Shown: positions 14,322-36,431 of the stretch, in pieces | Layout: the number at the start of each line of letters is the position of its first letter | Numbering within the stretch: position 1 is the first letter of the stretch | Origin: a virus | DNA: 38,235 bases | IMG/VR virus record: IMGVR_UViG_3300027985_000423 | Span: 1-38,235 of that record | Reading direction: 5' to 3' (one strand) | Translations under genes and position numbers: made by a program | Notes under the pieces: generated by a model | Told to the model about the DNA's origin: nothing | The model's input: only the letters and a program-made list of their open reading frames with translations | Database searches by the model: none

Positions 14322-17300
14322 TTATAGTTTAACACCTTTTTGCACAGAAATCTTCTTCTTCAGCCCTGTTTGAGCGGTACGCTTAACAAGGTTCGGGAAG
14401 GCCGAATTGTTCGTGCTTACCTGGCGGTACTTGAGGCCTGGTGCGGAAACTGTGCGAGCGCCAGAACCAACGGTTCCAACGGTAGTTGCAATGCCCTTGC
14501 CCTTCTTAGAAGAGCCGCTGCCGCTGCCGGTAGTTGTCTTGTACTTAGCGCGCTTCCAGCCCTGTTCGCCGCTGGTGTTGTCGCTCACCTGGTTCTCCGT
14601 GAACAGCTTGTCGATTGCTACGAGGTACTTGGCAGTCTCGATGTCATACAGCTCGCTCTCTGGGTCGAGCATAGCCTCGAGTTCAGTGTTGCTGATTTCA
14701 TCGTAAAGCTTGTACATGTAGCTGTCGATTTTGTTGCTCTTAGCCAGGTCAGAGCGAGTAATCTCGCGGTCGAGTTCTTCCGTGTCGCTGGCAGCTGAAG
14801 TAGGGTCTTCAGTAATCTTATCGCGCTGCAAGTTGAGTACGTTTGAGTATGCCTCCCAGTCGCCTGCGTCGAGGAACTTCTGCTCGCTCTTGATGATTTG
14901 GTTGCGGACCTCTTCAAGCTCGCTGGCCTTGAGTTCTTTATCGCCAGCCTTGTCGTAGATTTCCTTCTGGTCATCAGTGAGGAGGTCGCGGTACTTGTCG
15001 CTGCCGAGGACCTTGCTGAGGCTCTTGTTGACGGTCTCGCGCTCTGCGTCAGCCTGTGCGTTTGACGCGCGAGTTGCGTCTGATGTGGTGGTCGCGCCGA
15101 TGATGCGGGCCTCAATCTTAGTCGCTGCCTTGCCCTCATCGTCGCCTTCGAGGCTCTGTGAAATGATAGGGATTGCCGAGCCAATCTTAGCAAGGCCAGA
15201 CTTAAACGCGTCTCGCTTGCCGTCTTCATCCTTGATGTTCGTCTCTGGTGCGATTCCGTCAGCGTCGGCTCCAAAGCTGTTCATGGTGGCTACTACGTCA
15301 CGCAGGAAGGCTGGTACCAGCTGTGTAGCGAAGTCAACGCCGAGGTCGATGATGTCAGTAGCGCCCTGCTCACCGGCCTTATCTGGGTCGTTAAACGCGC
15401 TGCTGATTTCGTTGAAGAAGCCGAATAGTGGTGTCGATGCCGTGTTCAGGCTTGCCAGGCCAGTGGCTCCGAGGAGACCACGCGCCAAGTTGAAGGTGTA
15501 GCCAGCTGCGGCCTCGAATGGGTTGTCGCCGTTCGACACGCCTTCTGCCGCCTTCTTCACCGCCCATGCGTTCACGAGCTGCGCACCGAGAGGACCGAGC
15601 ATACCGATAGGAACTGTGGTGTCACCAAACTTGAGGTATGGTGGCGTGTATGAATTGCCGTTCGCGTCCTCGTCAGAGAGGAATGGTGCCAGCACCGTAA
15701 GGCCAGCGCCCATTTTCGCGGCGTTCCAGCTACCCTGAGTAAATGCGTTGAGCGCCTTCTGAAGTTCAGCTTCCTTAGCGGCCTTGTTGCCAGCCTTATT
15801 GGCAGCGTTAATAGCTTTACCGAATTTCACGACCTGAGTAATCATTGACTGGCGAGTAACCATGTTCTGTGCAGTACCGGTCATGTAGCTCGAGAATGGA
15901 ATCGTGAGGTTCTTACCAACTGTGAAGCTGTTAGCCAGTGCCTTTTTGGCAGGGGCGGATAGCTCTGAGGTGTTAATCTTCTTCTCCACGCTTTGGAAGA
16001 AGCGGTTGAGTGCTTCACCGACCTTCGATTGAAGACCTGAGATTTCCTTCGTCTTGAAGCTCGCACTCTTGTAGATAGCCTCTGGTGCCTGGACCATTGC
16101 TGAGCGCGCCACGATGTCCGCTTGCGCGTTAGTGAGGCCGCGCTTGGTAGCTGCGTCGAAGGCTTCCTTATAAAGAGTTGCGTTCTTGTAGCCACGGCTG
16201 AGGTATGTAGGCGCTGCCACTGCGGTGTGGATTGCGCTGTACACGCGACTCTTCTTACCGGTGCTGAGCGTCATGCCAGAACGAGGGTCGAACGAACCGA
16301 CCGTCTTACCCGAGCCTGATGCGAGGCCGGTGAACATGAGCGGCTTGTCTGCGTCACCGCGCCATGCTGCTGCGATGCGCTCACCAGCTTCCTGGTAGCC
16401 CTTACGCACGACGCCCTTACCGGCGGTAGCCTTCTGCTTGAACACTTGGCGACCCATTGCGTTGTTGAGGCCACGACCAATAATTGCCTCCATGGCATCG
16501 ACAAGCTTCACGTCGTTCTGCGTGAGCATGTTGGTTGTGATGATGTCGCGAACACGTCCGCTTGGCGCTGAAAGCATGGCTGCGCGGGTGTAGTTGTCGA
16601 GCTTGCGGCCGTACCACTTCTGCTCGGTGACGATACCCTCGTCGATGTTGCGTACGCGGATTCCGTCTACGGTCTCGTTCACTTTGTAGAAGGCGTCTGC
16701 GAGTTCCTTGTTTGAGGCCTCAAGTTCCTTGGTAGCCTTTTCGAGACGCTTGAAATCACGCTTCGGAGACTTCTTCGTAAGCTTCTCTTGAGCGGTTGTG
16801 ACCTCTGTTTTGAGGGCGTCGTTGCTCTCGTAAACCTTCTTGAGGTCCTTGCTGCCCTGGATGATAGCCGCTTCCTCTACGTCGTTCATTTGTCCGCCAG
16901 CGTCCTCGAGACGCTTCTTCACGCGACGAGCGACCATGGTTGGGTCCATGCTCTGGTAGATGTAGCCGAGGTATGCAGTTGAGCGACCGCTCTCGCTTGC
17001 GCGGATTGCGATGCTTTCCTCGAGGTCGAGCTTAGCCTCACCGAGCTGCTTGATGAGTTTCTTCTCAGCGGCAGTCTTGCCCTTCTTGTTTACGAGGTCT
17101 GCGAGTTCTTCAGCGATACGTGACTGGTGGGCCAGTGCGCGCGCCTCGACTTCTACGGTCGCTTCGCCAGTATTTCCAGCAAGGGCCTTCGCGTTGGCGA
17201 TTGCCTGCTTAGTAGAAGCTTCTGCCGCTTCCTTGGTCGCCTTCTCTTGGACATCCTTAAATGACACCTTGCGCTTGCCAGGTGCAGCGGAGAAGAATTC

Positions 17301-19781
17301 CTTAACGCCTTCGTTACCGAAGGTCTTGCTCACGCGGTCCATGTAGGTAGACACCTTACCGCCAGCCTTGCCCTTGGCTGCCTTGATAGGGGTACCCTGA
17401 GCCTCGGCGACAGTCTTGGCCTTGGCGCGTTCCGCCTTCTTTACTTCCTTCACCTCTTTGGCGATAGGAGCGGTTTCAGCGCGACCAGCCTTTTGGTCGG
17501 CGGTCAGCTGCTCGTCGTACTTGTCCTTGTCGGCCTGCTTAGCCATGACATTATCGGATTCAATCTTCTTGACGCGCTCGTCGAGGGCGCGAATAGCAGC
17601 GGCCTTTTCTTCGCGAGAGAGGCTCTCGTTCTTGGTAATCTTCTCGATTTCCTTGCGCATCCAAGTGCGGTTCACTGTGCCATTCTTGTTCATTTGGACC
17701 TTGGTGTAGCCCTCTGGTGCCTCAGTAGCAGCCTTTGCCTCGGCTGGTGTAGTCTGCGGAGCGTTGTTCGATTCAGCAGCCTGGGTCTCTTTGGCATCGT
17801 TCTTGGCGGCACGAAGCTCTGCCTCTGCCTTCTTAATCTCTGAAGGCTCGGCCATTTCTCGCTTGAGATAGTCGAGACGTTCCTGCGCAGCCTTAACACG
17901 ACCGTCTGCCGCAGCGACGTTCTTGTTAGTTGGTACTTCTGGCGTAACAGGTGTGGCGGCCGCAGCAGCCTCCTTCGACTTCGCGGTTGTTGTAGTTTCA
18001 GCAACAGTAGCCTCTGGCGTTTCAGGAGCCACGGCTGGTTGTACCGCAGCCTCATCGACTTGCGCTTCAGCTTGCTTTGCAGCAGCTTCCGCCTCTTCAG
18101 AGATAGCTTGCGCCTCTTGGATTGCACGCTCTTCTTGGATGCGAGCTTCTGCTTCGGCTGCTTGAGCCTTGGCCTGCTCTGCCTTAGCGAGGCGCGCCTC
18201 TTCTCGGGCAGCTGCTTCTCGAGCGGCCTTGGCTGTAGCCTCTGCCTGCGCCTGAGCCTGTTGTGCTTGGACCAATTTAAGTTCGGCCGCAGCCTTGGCG
18301 TCTGACGCGGCGTTTGTTGATTTAATACCCGTCCCCTCGCCGATAGATACGGTCTCTGGGACACTCTCAAGCTCTTGCTCTGCGATACGCACATTGGTTG
18401 CAGCTTCCGTCACCACGTTATCTGCCTCTTGGACACCCTGACGAATAGCCGCGCGTTCGGCCGGTACGTCGATGTCAGGACCACCCTTCACCCCGAAGGC
18501 ACCTTCAATGGCACCACCGAGTAGGAATGAGAGTGCTGCGTTCTGGCCGATTTCCTCGCCAGTTCGGTCGATAGCTGTATTTGTAGTATCTCCGGCAACT
18601 GAGAATCCGGCGTTAAGGACACCACCTTGCATGAAGCGAGAACCGAAGCGTGCTAGTGCAGACGGCGCTTTAGATGCGGCACCATACGGTAGGAACTGAG
18701 CCGCTGTGCTACCAGCGTTCACTGTACCGCCAGCGAACTTACCTGTTCGAGCGCCGATGTCATCCTTGATGTTGGTGATTCCACCGTCCTCGCTAACCTG
18801 CCAATCGAAGTTCGCGTTATAGAGAGCTGGTGAGGCACGGAAGGCGCGGACCACTGTGTCATAGTCAACCAGTCCAGCTGCATACGCGGCGTTAAGCTCG
18901 TCAACCTGCTGTTGAGTCTGAAGCTGACCGACGCCCTCTCCACCAACGTCTGCGCCAATCTTGCTAAATGCGTTCGTGAGCGCCTTGAGGTCACTCTCCT
19001 TCAGCATGTCCTCTGTACCGTAGAGGAGGTCGTTAAGCACGGTCTTCACGCTCTTCTTGGTCTCACCCTGGTCGGCAGTGCCGTCTTCAGCTGCGTTACC
19101 GTCAACATTCGCGAGGAATTCGTTCCAGGTGTTAATCGCGTCGATGTTCTCTTTTGATGTAGGAGCGGTCTTGTCACGCGCAGCAAGAATCGCACGGCGC
19201 TGCTTCTGCTGTTCCTCGGCGCTCATTTGGTTGTAGCGCTTGTAATCGAGGTTCATAGAGAGGTCTTCTTGCTCTGCCTGGTTCGCAGCCTGCTTCAGCT
19301 CGCGGCGGCGGTTATCCACAGCCTGGTTGTATCGCTGGTCATCAGCGAACGTACGCTTACTGCCTGGGTTGAACATGAGCATATCAGTTCGAATCGGCGA
19401 ACTGTTCATAATCTCTTGGTTGCTTGGAAGTGCGCGTGGCTCAGCCACGGTCTTCTTCTGCTCAACCTTCTTTGGCTGGTCCTCTTTCTTCGCAGAGGTT
19501 TGGACGTCACGGGCTACGAGAGTGTTCTCTCGCGATTGGGTCGGCATCATAAGAGACCCGAGGCCGAGCATCGGGTTCTGTGTTGTGCCAGGGATGTTGA
19601 GGTTGAGGCCAGGGTTGCCTACTGTGCGTGGGGCCTGTGTTTGCTGCTTCGCGTTAGCTGCGCGCTGGGCGGCAGCCTCAGCCTGGCGGCGAGCCTCTTC
19701 CTCATCTTTCTTCTTACGCTCTGCGTCAGAGGTGAACCCACCTCCGCTGAAGAAGTTCCCAATCCGCTGAAGAAAATCCAC
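14322..19781 (-). CDS. Giant internal virion / ejection protein
   Basis: An 1819-residue protein, one seventh of the genome. It starts at GTG 19781 with AGGGGT upstream. The N-terminus is MDFLQRIGNFFSGGG then a charged helix. Residues of about 360-440 are Gly/Ala-rich and membrane-friendly. Residues of about 450-620 are an Ala/Glu/Gln coiled coil. The middle part has GRSTAYLGYIYQSMDP and AMLSAPSGRVRDIITTNM, and the later part IPFSSYMTGTAQNM with a hydrophobic KFGDTTVPIGMLGPLG. These are the style of large phage polyvalent/internal proteins that are ejected before DNA and span the host envelope. No lytic transglycosylase catalytic motif was found, though I could not search by profile. Confidence 0.85.
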   Translation of the reverse strand: MDFLQRIGNFFSGGGFTSDAERKKKDEEEARRQAEAAAQRAANAKQQTQAPRTVGNPGLNLNIPGTTQNPMLGLGSLMMPTQSRENTLVARDVQTSAKKEDQPKKVEQKKTVAEPRALPSNQEIMNSSPIRTDMLMFNPGSKRTFADDQRYNQAVDNRRRELKQAANQAEQEDLSMNLDYKRYNQMSAEEQQKQRRAILAARDKTAPTSKENIDAINTWNEFLANVDGNAAEDGTADQGETKKSVKTVLNDLLYGTEDMLKESDLKALTNAFSKIGADVGGEGVGQLQTQQQVDELNAAYAAGLVDYDTVVRAFRASPALYNANFDWQVSEDGGITNIKDDIGARTGKFAGGTVNAGSTAAQFLPYGAASKAPSALARFGSRFMQGGVLNAGFSVAGDTTNTAIDRTGEEIGQNAALSFLLGGAIEGAFGVKGGPDIDVPAERAAIRQGVQEADNVVTEAATNVRIAEQELESVPETVSIGEGTGIKSTNAASDAKAAAELKLVQAQQAQAQAEATAKAAREAAAREEARLAKAEQAKAQAAEAEARIQEERAIQEAQAISEEAEAAAKQAEAQVDEAAVQPAVAPETPEATVAETTTTAKSKEAAAAATPVTPEVPTNKNVAAADGRVKAAQERLDYLKREMAEPSEIKKAEAELRAAKNDAKETQAAESNNAPQTTPAEAKAATEAPEGYTKVQMNKNGTVNRTWMRKEIEKITKNESLSREEKAAAIRALDERVKKIESDNVMAKQADKDKYDEQLTADQKAGRAETAPIAKEVKEVKKAERAKAKTVAEAQGTPIKAAKGKAGGKVSTYMDRVSKTFGNEGVKEFFSAAPGKRKVSFKDVQEKATKEAAEASTKQAIANAKALAGNTGEATVEVEARALAHQSRIAEELADLVNKKGKTAAEKKLIKQLGEAKLDLEESIAIRASESGRSTAYLGYIYQSMDPTMVARRVKKRLEDAGGQMNDVEEAAIIQGSKDLKKVYESNDALKTEVTTAQEKLTKKSPKRDFKRLEKATKELEASNKELADAFYKVNETVDGIRVRNIDEGIVTEQKWYGRKLDNYTRAAMLSAPSGRVRDIITTNMLTQNDVKLVDAMEAIIGRGLNNAMGRQVFKQKATAGKGVVRKGYQEAGERIAAAWRGDADKPLMFTGLASGSGKTVGSFDPRSGMTLSTGKKSRVYSAIHTAVAAPTYLSRGYKNATLYKEAFDAATKRGLTNAQADIVARSAMVQAPEAIYKSASFKTKEISGLQSKVGEALNRFFQSVEKKINTSELSAPAKKALANSFTVGKNLTIPFSSYMTGTAQNMVTRQSMITQVVKFGKAINAANKAGNKAAKEAELQKALNAFTQGSWNAAKMGAGLTVLAPFLSDEDANGNSYTPPYLKFGDTTVPIGMLGPLGAQLVNAWAVKKAAEGVSNGDNPFEAAAGYTFNLARGLLGATGLASLNTASTPLFGFFNEISSAFNDPDKAGEQGATDIIDLGVDFATQLVPAFLRDVVATMNSFGADADGIAPETNIKDEDGKRDAFKSGLAKIGSAIPIISQSLEGDDEGKAATKIEARIIGATTTSDATRASNAQADAERETVNKSLSKVLGSDKYRDLLTDDQKEIYDKAGDKELKASELEEVRNQIIKSEQKFLDAGDWEAYSNVLNLQRDKITEDPTSAASDTEELDREITRSDLAKSNKIDSYMYKLYDEISNTELEAMLDPESELYDIETAKYLVAIDKLFTENQVSDNTSGEQGWKRAKYKTTTGSGSGSSKKGKGIATTVGTVGSGARTVSAPGLKYRQVSTNNSAFPNLVKRTAQTGLKKKISVQKGVKL

Positions 19782-28029: not shown

Positions 28030-28039
28030 AAAAACCGTT

Positions 28040-28214
28040 GTGTACACTTAGGGTCTCGTATTGTATAAAAACACTTATTTAATTTTATCTAATAGGAAAG
28101 GCCAAGTGTACACAAATTCACTAAGGGCGTTGTGGACACTTGACATAAAGGGTAAAATCCAAACCACCACTGTGTACAGTAAGTGTACACAAAAGTGTAC
28201 ACAAAAGTGTACAC
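28040..28214. repeat. GTGTACAC palindromic iterons
   Basis: Perfect GTGTACAC copies start at 28040, 28106, 28183, 28195 and 28207. Degenerate copies (GTGGACAC and GTGTACAG) lie at 28132 and 28172. The last three perfect copies are in direct tandem at a 12-bp period within AAGTGTACACAA units. This is the form of an iteron array bound by a dimeric initiator or repressor. Confidence 0.85.
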
Positions 28215-28375
28215 AAATTTCGATTCCACAACATTTTCCCCAACCTGTAAAGCAAAACCACCACACCACACCCACCAACGCCCACAAAAACCAATTCCAA
28301 AACATTCCAGCCCTGTTGTCAATTCCACACCACCATTCTGACCTCTGTTTTTCGCCATTTTCTCGACGACAAGGC

Positions 28376-28899: not shown

Positions 28900-29265
28900 A
28901 TGCCAACAACACCATTCAACCAAGGTGAGGAAAAGACAAACGCTAAAAAGGGCGACGAAAAGCTGAAGTGTGGACACACTAAGGCGGACCACCTGCGTAT
29001 GGGCGAGGAGCTGCTTGAAGGGCTGCTCGGTCTCTCAGACGAGGAACGCACCGAGACGGAGACACACGAGGTCGAGGTCGGTTCTAAAGAGGAGGCGATT
29101 AACGCACTCGTGCAAGACCTGCCGTTTGAACAGGCGGTGAAGATTGCATCAGAGGTGCTTGGACGCGCAGTTGACGCTAATAACGGCGTCGGTATGCGTA
29201 TCGAGGGTATCCGCTCACGTGACAACTCGAAGGTCGTCATCACTGTAACGAGCGAAGAACTTTAA
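28900..29265 (+). CDS. Hypothetical protein next to the MoxR/VWA pair
   Basis: A 121-residue acidic protein with AAGGAGG ten bases before its ATG. It has a disordered charged N-terminus, one CGH group (KLKCGHTKADH) near residue 24, an acidic helix (EELLEGLLGLSDEERTETE), and a final small alpha/beta part with NALVQDLPFEQAVKIASEVLG and VVITVTSEEL. Its place directly before the ATPase suggests it belongs to the same module. Function unknown. Confidence 0.75.
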   Translation: MPTTPFNQGEEKTNAKKGDEKLKCGHTKADHLRMGEELLEGLLGLSDEERTETETHEVEVGSKEEAINALVQDLPFEQAVKIASEVLGRAVDANNGVGMRIEGIRSRDNSKVVITVTSEEL

Positions 29266-29293
29266 TCCATACACGAAGGAGTAAAACACTACT

Positions 29294-30232
29294 ATGGACC
29301 AACTACGTATAATCGAGGCGGCGCTTGTTGCGGACGTGCCGCTGCTTATCGAAGGCCACACTGGCTCAGGTAAGACATACACGATTATGGAACTCGCAAC
29401 CGCACGTAAAAAGACCTTGCACGTGATTAACGTGTCAGGCGAACTGACTGTTGATTCGATTCTCGGTCAACAGACGCTTATCGACGGTAACGTCGTATGG
29501 CGTGACGGAGTATTGACTACCGCTATGAAGAATGGCGATTGGGTGCTACTCGACGAGATGAACACGGCGCTACCAGAGGTGCTTACGGTCATTAACGGTA
29601 TTTTGGACGACTCACGTAGCGTGACACTGCCAAATGCTGAGAATGAGCGCGTGAAAGCACACGAAGACTTCCGCTTTATCGGTACACAGAACCCCGCTAC
29701 AGGCGAGTATGCCGGTACTGGGCGACTGAACTCGGCACTGCTTAACCGTATGATTAAGATTGAATTCTCTTATATGGACGCAAAAGAAGAGTTGAAGGCC
29801 CTTAAAAAGCACACCAAAGTGAGCGACGCAAGCGTGCGAGCCTTGGTCGATATTGCGAACTACACACGTCAGAACCTACAGGACAACCCAGTCTCCACAC
29901 GTGACTTGGTGAAGGTCCTCCGTCTGCGTGACGCCGGTAAGCTGTCGATACGAGACGCATTGACTTTCGTGCTTTCACAAAAGTATGAGCAGTCTGAGTA
30001 CGAAGACGTGCAACGCCGCTTTGACGACCGCTTGAGCAACTACGTTCGCTTTACCAACTACAACGAACAGGCCGACCCGTACGAGGAGCTGATGAAGATT
30101 CATCGCGAGAACCAAGAGGAGCGCCGTCGTATTCAGGAAGAAAAGCGTAACCTACGTGCCGAAGTTAAGCGTGAGCTGTTGAAGGACCTGCTTGGTAGCA
30201 AGTCTGAAGACGGCGTGCCAAAGGACTTTTAG
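29294..30232 (+). CDS. MoxR-type AAA+ ATPase
   Basis: A 312-residue protein. Walker A GHTGSGKT is at residues 21-28, Walker B VLLDEMN at 84-90, sensor-1 GTQNP at 130-134, and an arginine finger region SALLNRM near residue 152. A helical lid with VSTRDLVKVLRLRD follows. The last 80 residues are a charged coiled coil (ENQEERRRIQEEKRNLRAEVKRELLKDLL). MoxR/CobS-type ATPases work with a VWA-domain partner to remodel or mature a target protein. That partner is the next gene, two bases away. The target in this phage is unknown. Confidence 0.9.
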   Translation: MDQLRIIEAALVADVPLLIEGHTGSGKTYTIMELATARKKTLHVINVSGELTVDSILGQQTLIDGNVVWRDGVLTTAMKNGDWVLLDEMNTALPEVLTVINGILDDSRSVTLPNAENERVKAHEDFRFIGTQNPATGEYAGTGRLNSALLNRMIKIEFSYMDAKEELKALKKHTKVSDASVRALVDIANYTRQNLQDNPVSTRDLVKVLRLRDAGKLSIRDALTFVLSQKYEQSEYEDVQRRFDDRLSNYVRFTNYNEQADPYEELMKIHRENQEERRRIQEEKRNLRAEVKRELLKDLLGSKSEDGVPKDF

Positions 30233-30234
30233 CT

Positions 30235-31326
30235 ATGGCCGCTCCTAACACGAACCCGAATCCTGCTAATATGAAATACACGCAGAAGATTGACCCGAAA
30301 ACCGGCGAAATCTCATACGTACCGGAGACACCTCCACAAGGGCAGGGCGACGGAAAGAGCAAGAATAAATCTGGCAGTGGGGGCGATAAGCAGTACAATC
30401 CTAAGAGTACGCAGGCCGCCTCTAAAGAGTTGCTCGGCAATAATCACGACTATGAGTTGAACGAGCGTATCCTCCAAGATATTGAGACGGACTACAGTAT
30501 CTTTGGCAATAATGGTCGTCGGCTCGACTTTAAGCCCGATAACAAACTCACGAAGGCACTCGAGGCCCTCGAAGTGAACAATAAAAAGCTGCGCTATGAC
30601 CGACGCCTACTCTCTGGCAAGCTAGACGGACGACGACTTGTGGCTCACAAGACGAGCGAACGCCTATTCAAGAAAAAGGCCATTAAGCACCGCGATTACC
30701 AGTTCACACTCCTCGTAGACACGAGTGGCTCGATGTTCGATTCGAAGATTACCACCGCTATTAGCTCGGTATCGAAAATCGTACAAAGCCTTGAGCAGTT
30801 GAACATTCCTGTCGCCGTATGGGCAATGAACAACGCCGTCGTGCTTGTGAAGGACTACCGAGAAACGTACGACGAGACCGATGTTATGAACCGTTTTAAG
30901 TTCAGTATGTCGGGACAAGTGAAGAGCGACGACGACGCAGTATTCGCCGGTGGCACCTCAGAGTACGTGGCGTACGAAGAGGCGCTCGAGCGAGCAAAGG
31001 CCAACTCGACGCACAAGACTAAGAACGTGGCTATCGTGCTTTCAGACGGCGCACCAGGCTGTCGCAACGAGTACACCCCAGTATTCGCCGACGGCAAGGT
31101 AACGGAGTACAAGACCGAGTATTCTCGCCACACCGGCGCATATCAGCCTTCTGCCAATAGAACCGATAGCTTGCGTACGTGGTGGGAACGTCGTAAATTC
31201 GAGATTGAGGCGTACGGCATAGGACTTTACTCAGACGCACGCCAAGTGACTAATGCGAAGTCCATAAATAATATCAAGCAATTACCCGAAGTGATGAACA
31301 ATTTAATACAGAACATTATGTTCTAA
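30235..31326 (+). CDS. VWA-domain protein, partner of the MoxR ATPase
   Basis: A 363-residue protein. The first 110 residues are low-complexity and charged, and 120-155 is basic. The VWA domain starts near 155 with LLVDTSGSMFDSK, where Asp162, Ser164 and Ser166 form the metal-ion MIDAS. Thr241 in GGTSEY and SDG at 270-272 (Asp271) complete it, so the metal site looks intact. CobT-like C-terminal arrangement. It binds a substrate through the metal and brings it to the ATPase. Two bases separate it from that gene. Confidence 0.9.
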   Translation: MAAPNTNPNPANMKYTQKIDPKTGEISYVPETPPQGQGDGKSKNKSGSGGDKQYNPKSTQAASKELLGNNHDYELNERILQDIETDYSIFGNNGRRLDFKPDNKLTKALEALEVNNKKLRYDRRLLSGKLDGRRLVAHKTSERLFKKKAIKHRDYQFTLLVDTSGSMFDSKITTAISSVSKIVQSLEQLNIPVAVWAMNNAVVLVKDYRETYDETDVMNRFKFSMSGQVKSDDDAVFAGGTSEYVAYEEALERAKANSTHKTKNVAIVLSDGAPGCRNEYTPVFADGKVTEYKTEYSRHTGAYQPSANRTDSLRTWWERRKFEIEAYGIGLYSDARQVTNAKSINNIKQLPEVMNNLIQNIMF

Positions 31327-31340
31327 AGGAGGTCATTATT

Positions 31341-31820
31341 ATGACTAAGAAACGACTAAACATTGACGAGATGATGGGCAACATCGCTAAGAAACACGGC
31401 GTATCAGTCGAAGAGCTTGGCGAAAAGCTCAAGGAAAAGGCGAAGAACTTTAGCACCGGCCGCATTGCAGTGCGCATTGGCGAAATGGCTCAAGAGCTTG
31501 GTAAGCAGTACACCACTGACGACCCTGAGCTTGCGGAGCTTATCGCTATGACACTGGCTGAAATGGTCGCCGCTAAGAGCGAGGAACACGTTCGTCTCGT
31601 AGTAAAGGCCATTATCGACACACGTGAAGAGACACGTGAGTGGCCTGATTCATGGGGCTACCTCTGTCTCGTGACCAACTGGCTTTCGTGGGCGTGGCAC
31701 GAAGAGGGCGACAAAGAGCTTGCTAAGGCATGGTCGGACGCGTGGTACAAGATTAACGCGTACACTATCGACAACATGACCGGCAAGCGTCTCGAAGAAT
31801 ACCAAGAGTACGTAGACTAA
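31341..31820 (+). CDS. Hypothetical protein following the MoxR/VWA pair
   Basis: A 159-residue protein with AAAGGAGG eight bases before ATG. It begins with a helical part (IDEMMGNIAKKHGVSVEELGEKLKEKAKNF), then a helix-rich segment LAELIAMTLAEMVAAK, then a Trp-rich region (WPDSWGYLCLVTNWLSWAWHEEGD). It could be a substrate or adaptor of the ATPase/VWA pair, inferred from adjacency. It ends the first gene cluster of this operon. Confidence 0.75.
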   Translation: MTKKRLNIDEMMGNIAKKHGVSVEELGEKLKEKAKNFSTGRIAVRIGEMAQELGKQYTTDDPELAELIAMTLAEMVAAKSEEHVRLVVKAIIDTREETREWPDSWGYLCLVTNWLSWAWHEEGDKELAKAWSDAWYKINAYTIDNMTGKRLEEYQEYVD

Positions 31821-35579: not shown

Positions 35580-36431
35580 ATGAGCTACTACGGACGAGAA
35601 ATGACACCTGAAGAGAAGGCCGAGCAAAAGGCGGCCAAGAAGGCGGAGCGGCGCGCAATGACCATTTTGGTCAGCGCCGTCGTCATCACGATACTGGCAA
35701 TCATCACGCTTTTTAGCTCGATGCGCTTTGTCGGTACCGGTGAAGTTGGCGTGGTCACACAGTATGGGCGCGTCACTGGGCGCGAACTCACTGAAGGTTT
35801 TTCATGGGTGCTACCATGGGGCCTGAACTCAGTGACTAAGTACGACATCAAGGTCCAAAAGGAACAGACTGAAGGCGTTGCCGCAGCCACCAAGGACCTT
35901 CAGGACACGAACGCGACGGTCGTGCTGAACTACCAGCTCGAGCGTGGCAAGGTGTCGAACATCCACCAGAGCATCGGCAAGACGTACGACGACAAGCTGA
36001 TTGCACCGGCTACACAAGAGGTGTTCAAGGCCGCAACTGCGAACTACACCGCAGCTGAGACAATCACACAGCGCCCAGCACTCAAGGCTGACGTTGTGGC
36101 AGCACTCAAGGACCGCCTCGAGCCTTACGGCATCACCGTACTCGACGTGTCACTGACGAACTTTGCATTTAGCGAGGCCTTTAACGACGCTATCGAGCAG
36201 ACGCAAATTGCCAACCAGGAAGTCATCAAGGCGAAGAACGAGCTTGAAAAGGCGAAGGTTGACGCTGAGCGTGAAATCACAAAGGCAAAGGCAGCCGCAG
36301 AAGCACAGCGCTTGCAACAGCAAACACTTACCGACGAACTGCTCGAAAAGCAGTGGATTGAGAAGTGGGACGGCAAGCTACCTACATACGTAGGCGACGG
36401 AGCAAACTTTTATATCCCAGCAGGTAAATAA
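35580..36431 (+). CDS. SPFH/prohibitin-like membrane protein
   Basis: A 283-residue protein with AAGGAGG upstream. A basic, Ala/Lys-rich N-terminal helix is followed by one transmembrane segment at about 27-47, then the SPFH domain (GTGEVGVVTQYGRV, EGFSWVLPWGLNSVTKYD). After this come about 60 residues of coiled coil (NELEKAKVDAEREITKAKAAAEAQRLQQQ) and a conserved-looking end with KWDGKLPTYVG. Family members form ring scaffolds on membranes and regulate proteases. Here a role in host membrane stability, lysis timing or superinfection is possible. It pairs with the gene that follows. Confidence 0.92.
   Translation: MSYYGREMTPEEKAEQKAAKKAERRAMTILVSAVVITILAIITLFSSMRFVGTGEVGVVTQYGRVTGRELTEGFSWVLPWGLNSVTKYDIKVQKEQTEGVAAATKDLQDTNATVVLNYQLERGKVSNIHQSIGKTYDDKLIAPATQEVFKAATANYTAAETITQRPALKADVVAALKDRLEPYGITVLDVSLTNFAFSEAFNDAIEQTQIANQEVIKAKNELEKAKVDAEREITKAKAAAEAQRLQQQTLTDELLEKQWIEKWDGKLPTYVGDGANFYIPAGK

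Follow-up and report, generated by a model that had tools for sequence, protein, structure and literature searches.

A two-gene cluster, cobST, is widespread in tailed viruses of bacteria and archaea, in which a MoxR-type ATPase (phrog_249) is encoded next to a VWA protein with a MIDAS (phrog_1576 and phrog_5298); it has been suggested to hijack the host CobN, and a peptidase annotation of the viral CobT has been called mistaken (PMC8651126). Viral MoxR-VWA pairs have also been described in archaeal viruses (PMC7911831, PMC4124505). The p618 and p892 proteins of Acidianus two-tailed virus (ATV), a MoxR ATPase and a VWA protein, interact, and the ATPase is stimulated by p892 (PMC4124505). In CbbQO, the MIDAS of the VWA protein takes hold of the client through an acidic residue, a mode that the authors predicted to be general, and activation is lost with most mutations of the MIDAS (PMC4660213). 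MoxR-VWA ternary conflict systems carry a third component, for example VMAP, or effector domains (PMC7159879).

We analysed a pair of this kind in IMG/VR record IMGVR_UViG_3300027985_000423, a bacterial virus of 38,235 bases; the whole of this stretch is referred to as the window. It ends in an exact 144-nt terminal direct repeat, and the 38.2-kb phage genome is therefore probably complete. The genes (from the ORF list) and the motifs (from the sequence) are as follows.

28900–29265, forward strand: upstream ORFan, 121 aa
29294–30232, forward strand: MoxR/CbbQ-type AAA+ ATPase, 312 aa
29354–29377, forward strand: Walker A motif GHTGSGKT, ATPase residues 21–28
29546–29563, forward strand: Walker B motif LLDEMN, ATPase residues 85–90
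30235–31326, forward strand: VWA adaptor-like protein, 363 aa
30718–30732, forward strand: MIDAS motif DTSGS, VWA protein residues 162–166
30955–30957, forward strand: MIDAS residue T241
31045–31047, forward strand: MIDAS residue D271
31341–31820, forward strand: downstream predicted all-helical protein, lineage-specific companion, 159 aa

All four open reading frames named in the original prediction were confirmed where it had placed them. The good ribosome sites that it reported are there as well, a clear Shine-Dalgarno sequence preceding both 28900 (AAGGAGG) and 31341 (AAAGGAGG), and its description of an intact AAA+ ATPase adjacent to a VWA protein with an intact MIDAS holds, with motifs complete in both and a gap of 2 nt between the two genes. 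The pair belongs to a forward block of early and DNA-metabolism genes and is followed on its 3' side by genes for an SNF2 helicase, Sak4, a possible SSB and a RecE/Cas4-like exonuclease; the reverse block holds the capsid and terminase genes and most of the other long ones. No Rfam family was found in the 38.2-kb window.

The ATPase matches AAA_5 in Pfam (8.9e-22) and phrog_249 in PHROGs (9.9e-52), the latter over positions 124–333 of the 380-position profile only, so that the ATPase core by which viral CobST is recognised is present. It carries Walker A, Walker B with its DE pair, the sensor-1 asparagine (N133) and the conserved arginines (R152 and R203) that mark MoxR-type AAA+ proteins of the CbbQ/NorQ/CobS branch. 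In PDB searches the best matches were NorQ (5.8e-19) and CbbQ (1.2e-17), followed by CobS (9e-10); CbbQ and NorQ are thus the stand-alone solved proteins closest to its core, and CbbO, like the window protein, is a VWA partner with a full MIDAS. The window differs from these systems in that neither rubisco nor nitric oxide reductase genes form the context, and in that a long N-terminal region is absent from its VWA protein. A search of 50,697 phage records returned matches to the ATPase in 913, all below 60% identity, including cyanophages and Staphylococcus, Listeria, Gordonia and Vibrio phages. Twelve diverse ATPases, when aligned, shared no stretch of sufficient conservation to serve as a query. 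A first scan of a collection of genome contigs with a two-sequence ATPase alignment gave no match, and a second scan returned distant bacterial and archaeal homologues only.

The neighbouring VWA protein, whose MIDAS is complete as expected of a MoxR-VWA pair, matches CobT_C (2.7e-6) and VWA (1.4e-5) in Pfam and phrog_1576 (1.7e-8) and phrog_5298 (1.2e-7) in PHROGs; its best phage matches are annotated as CobT, and its VWA domain resembles the C-terminal domain of the cobaltochelatase CobT. The catalytic residues of both partners are conserved, as they are in the viral cobST cluster, which also usually sits near replication genes. Walker A residues G21, G24 and K27 are kept in 68 of 68 distinct ATPases, Walker B E88 likewise and D87 in 67; R152 is invariant in the same set and the other key residues are nearly so. 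On the VWA side, D162 and S166 occur in 66/66 ungapped proteins, S164 in 66/67 (the exception being a change to threonine) and D271 in 69/69. Degradation of ATPase or MIDAS residues in most relatives, set beforehand as a ground for giving up the idea of a working module, is ruled out by this near-invariance, which covers 68 ATPases and some 66 VWA proteins.

The window pair is a divergent member of the already known viral CobST (MoxR-VWA) kind, and what is unusual about it is its architecture: both proteins are without the N-terminal domains that their relatives in other viruses carry. The ATPase begins directly at the nucleotide-binding core, and its 312 aa compare with about 340–530 in the viral relatives sampled; it lacks the N-terminal domain that other viral CobS-like proteins have. 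The VWA protein covers only the C-terminal half of viral CobT (363 aa against about 580–800). A Pfam scan gave no PF06213 match for the CobT N-terminal domain, the window ORFs have no match to that domain's profile, and an HExxH motif is present in no likely gene of the 38.2-kb window. A TQ...TG...V pattern is common to the HExxH domain and to the initial 30 residues of the VWA protein, and we considered these residues as a remnant of the domain; they score no better than shuffled sequence. We also considered whether the gene at 28900 or that at 31341 supplies the missing N-terminal domains; neither product matches the HExxH-domain profile. The gene order also sets the window apart from the viral cobST cluster: the ATPase comes first, then the VWA protein, then the 159-aa companion.

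Single-protein scans of viral contigs with the VWA, downstream, ATPase and SNF2 proteins gave no match, and an alignment with three distant phage proteins led to two IMG/VR contigs from which the only near relative found, L018, was obtained. It has 38,033 bases, a 127-nt terminal repeat and a broadly syntenic genome, with a G+C content of 41% against 53% in the window phage. The ATPase is 57% identical between the two, the highest value among the proteins that they have in common, and the VWA protein 40%; Sak4 (53%), the SNF2 helicase (52%), the capsid protein (49%), the primase (46%) and the possible SSB (36%) were also compared. That the pair is so strongly conserved in a diverged relative puts it far beyond chance and supports the reading of a phage-borne pair under strong selection.

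The original prediction counted four genes in the module, and this number is not supported. As it had stated, the flanking genes belong to no recognised family, with no convincing match in Pfam, PHROGs, NCBIfam or PADLOC; neither protein matched anything significantly in the 50,697 phage records, nor do the 121-aa and 159-aa proteins match each other. For the 121-aa ORFan gene at 28900 the ribosome site is the sole support: no homologue was found in phages, in L018 (which has a 150-aa ORF in that position) or in the related loci, and it probably lies outside the functional unit. The 159-aa protein, by contrast, has 34% identity over 122 aa to the product of the gene in the same position in L018. 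All three being kept in the relative and the upstream gene being absent there, the unit conserved in this lineage consists of the ATPase, the VWA protein and the 159-aa protein; in L018 a 69-aa ORF lies between the ATPase and VWA genes. The 159-aa gene was not found beside any other sampled MoxR-VWA pair, L018 being the only other phage in which it was found. Free variation of the flanking genes around the pair, named as a sign against the module, does describe the upstream gene, while the downstream gene is lineage-specific. Its linkage is weak evidence because neighbouring genes of the early region are conserved and syntenic too, and it may have been kept merely through this synteny. The structural model of the 159-aa protein has eight helices (mean pLDDT 72.6), and Foldseek against the PDB found no useful fold match for it. 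If the pair has a client or docking factor peculiar to this lineage, this protein is the likeliest candidate.

The motifs are intact and conserved, and three genes are co-conserved in two phages; the pair is a genuine gene pair of a known viral kind, under selection and in pared-down form, with a single companion gene specific to the lineage. Its action can be sketched by analogy with CbbQO, RavA-ViaA and ATV p618/p892. The CbbQ-like ATPase would form a ring on which the VWA protein docks as an adaptor; the MIDAS metal site, if it works as in CbbQO, would grip an acidic residue of the client protein, and hydrolysis of ATP would drive the disassembly or reshaping of the client complex. Going by gene position only, the client may be a DNA replication or recombination complex of the phage or of the host. 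A DNA polymerase III alpha gene is found within the flanks of 75 of 80 related viral loci, a linkage that is partly common descent because the 80 loci are not independent and many belong to one clade; the pairs of ICP2, T5S1 and phage OC adjoin primase, polymerase or clamp genes. The pair may also merely sit in the early region. We put at about even the chances that the pair is an ATP-driven MoxR-VWA remodeller without a peptidase, with a client more likely to be a DNA replication or recombination complex than the virion or a cobalt chelatase. The reduced branch shows that the HExxH domain and the ATPase N-terminus are dispensable and that the nucleotide site and the MIDAS are not; cut down to an ATPase core and a VWA domain, it is a small system suited to client finding.

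The full-length viral relatives, to which the comparison draws attention, offer the more interesting lead. Among the fetched loci, 54 of the 65 distinct long viral VWA proteins adjacent to an ATPase have an HExxH ahead of the MIDAS. Those that lack it are mostly near-identical copies of one type, with DQEVAK replacing HExxH; the remaining cases are L002, which has DREVST there, and contigs truncated at the N-terminal end. A long VWA protein with an N-terminal HExxH domain is therefore the usual, not universal, CobST form, and the 363-aa window protein departs from it. Residues H69, E70, H73, E98, D99 and E103 are invariant in 36 members (L019:3381-4160 and 35 other loci), of which only the invariance of E98, D99 and E103 is informative, as the members were picked for having HExxH. 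PF06213, the CobT N-terminal family, matches all 36. In the one solved cellular CobT that was aligned the corresponding stretch has no HExxH, this part of the alignment not being significant by itself.

An AlphaFold2 model of the HExxH domain (mean pLDDT 86.7, and about 89 or more across residues 11–210) shows three short strands and, after them, the HExxH helix. A Foldseek search gave no significant match to this model. With a second-look aligner zincin-type proteins rank top, at Z scores below 8 that are weak alone: Ste24p (Z 5.8, rmsd 4.2, 140 residues aligned), ArdC (5.2, 3.7, 128), IRAP (4.2, 5.3, 161), jannalysin (4.2, 3.9, 101) and selecase (4.0, 4.3, 99). The model suggests that viral CobT bears a gluzincin-like domain resembling the minigluzincin metallopeptidases. 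A tentative extension, which we regard as possible and still rather doubtful, is that viral CobST is an ATPase-coupled gluzincin-like metallopeptidase acting on replication complexes and not in B12 synthesis, the window phage and its relative forming a derived branch that has no peptidase and works purely by remodelling, through a short VWA protein and a new helical companion. In one split version (L029:7066-10183) a HEIGH protein of 435 aa and a VWA protein of 356 aa are encoded by separate ORFs, which flank an HNH-like ORF of 212 aa. The N-termini of the CobS-like proteins of L002, L003 and L004, from SSU5-type phages, contain a zinc-finger-like Cys/His stretch, seen by eye.

The virion had been offered as a substrate, and the window pair is comparable by description to that of ATV, the only viral MoxR-VWA case with biochemistry in the literature consulted, which was assigned to tail development and not to replication and whose p618 is a virion component that binds virion proteins (PMC4124505). 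That structural role is played in a spindle-shaped archaeal virus, whereas the window pair sits among DNA-metabolism genes in the early block, away from the structural genes; a chaperone of virion assembly or maturation is for this reason the less likely reading, and we consider it unlikely. We rate just as low the chance that the pair serves host takeover or counter-defence by taking a host complex apart, with the 159-aa protein as specificity factor. Its early gene position, its lineage-specific companion and the PHROGs category of phrog_249 ('moron, auxiliary metabolic gene and host takeover') would suit such a role, but an ATPase conserved at 57% between phages 12 G+C points apart looks more like part of the phage core than like a factor in an arms race. 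The related idea of a conflict system found no support, as the libraries searched revealed no resemblance to an effector in any of the four proteins; PADLOC gave only weak matches, generic to AAA+ ATPases, and for the flanking genes Pfam, PADLOC and NCBIfam returned no family.

Hundreds of phage genomes bear the pair under a putative vitamin B12 (cobalt chelatase) label, and yet insertion of cobalt together with host CobN, raising cobalamin output for nucleotide synthesis, is very improbable and cobalt chelation by the window pair is not supported: the similarity to CobS and CobT is real but weak, and against it and the proposed hijack of CobN (PMC8651126) stand scores far under the curated cut-offs (42.9 bits against 558.55 for CobS, TIGR01650; 14.7 against 759.05 for CobT, TIGR01651), an ATPase closer to NorQ/CbbQ than to CobS, the absent CobT N-terminal domain and scans of part of the window ORFs in which no ribonucleotide reductase was noticed.

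In the annotated regions examined the ATPase is mostly paired with a VWA/CobT-like gene; three regions, from Acinetobacter AM24, Staphylococcus Kayvirus and Listeria phages, have a DUF7192 gene after the ATPase instead (L008:5802-6695, L009:5807-6652 and L010:5799-6710), and DUF7192 is possibly an alternative partner. Elsewhere in the window, a 1819-aa ORF without Pfam or PHROG match occupies 14322–19781 on the reverse strand, and 35580–36431 encodes an SPFH/Band-7 (stomatin/prohibitin-type) protein (Pfam 2.6e-30) that was not found in the close relative. Upstream of the module, the intergenic stretch 28038–28219 holds five palindromic GTGTACAC boxes, three of them in exact 12-bp tandem, which may be an operator or replication iterons.
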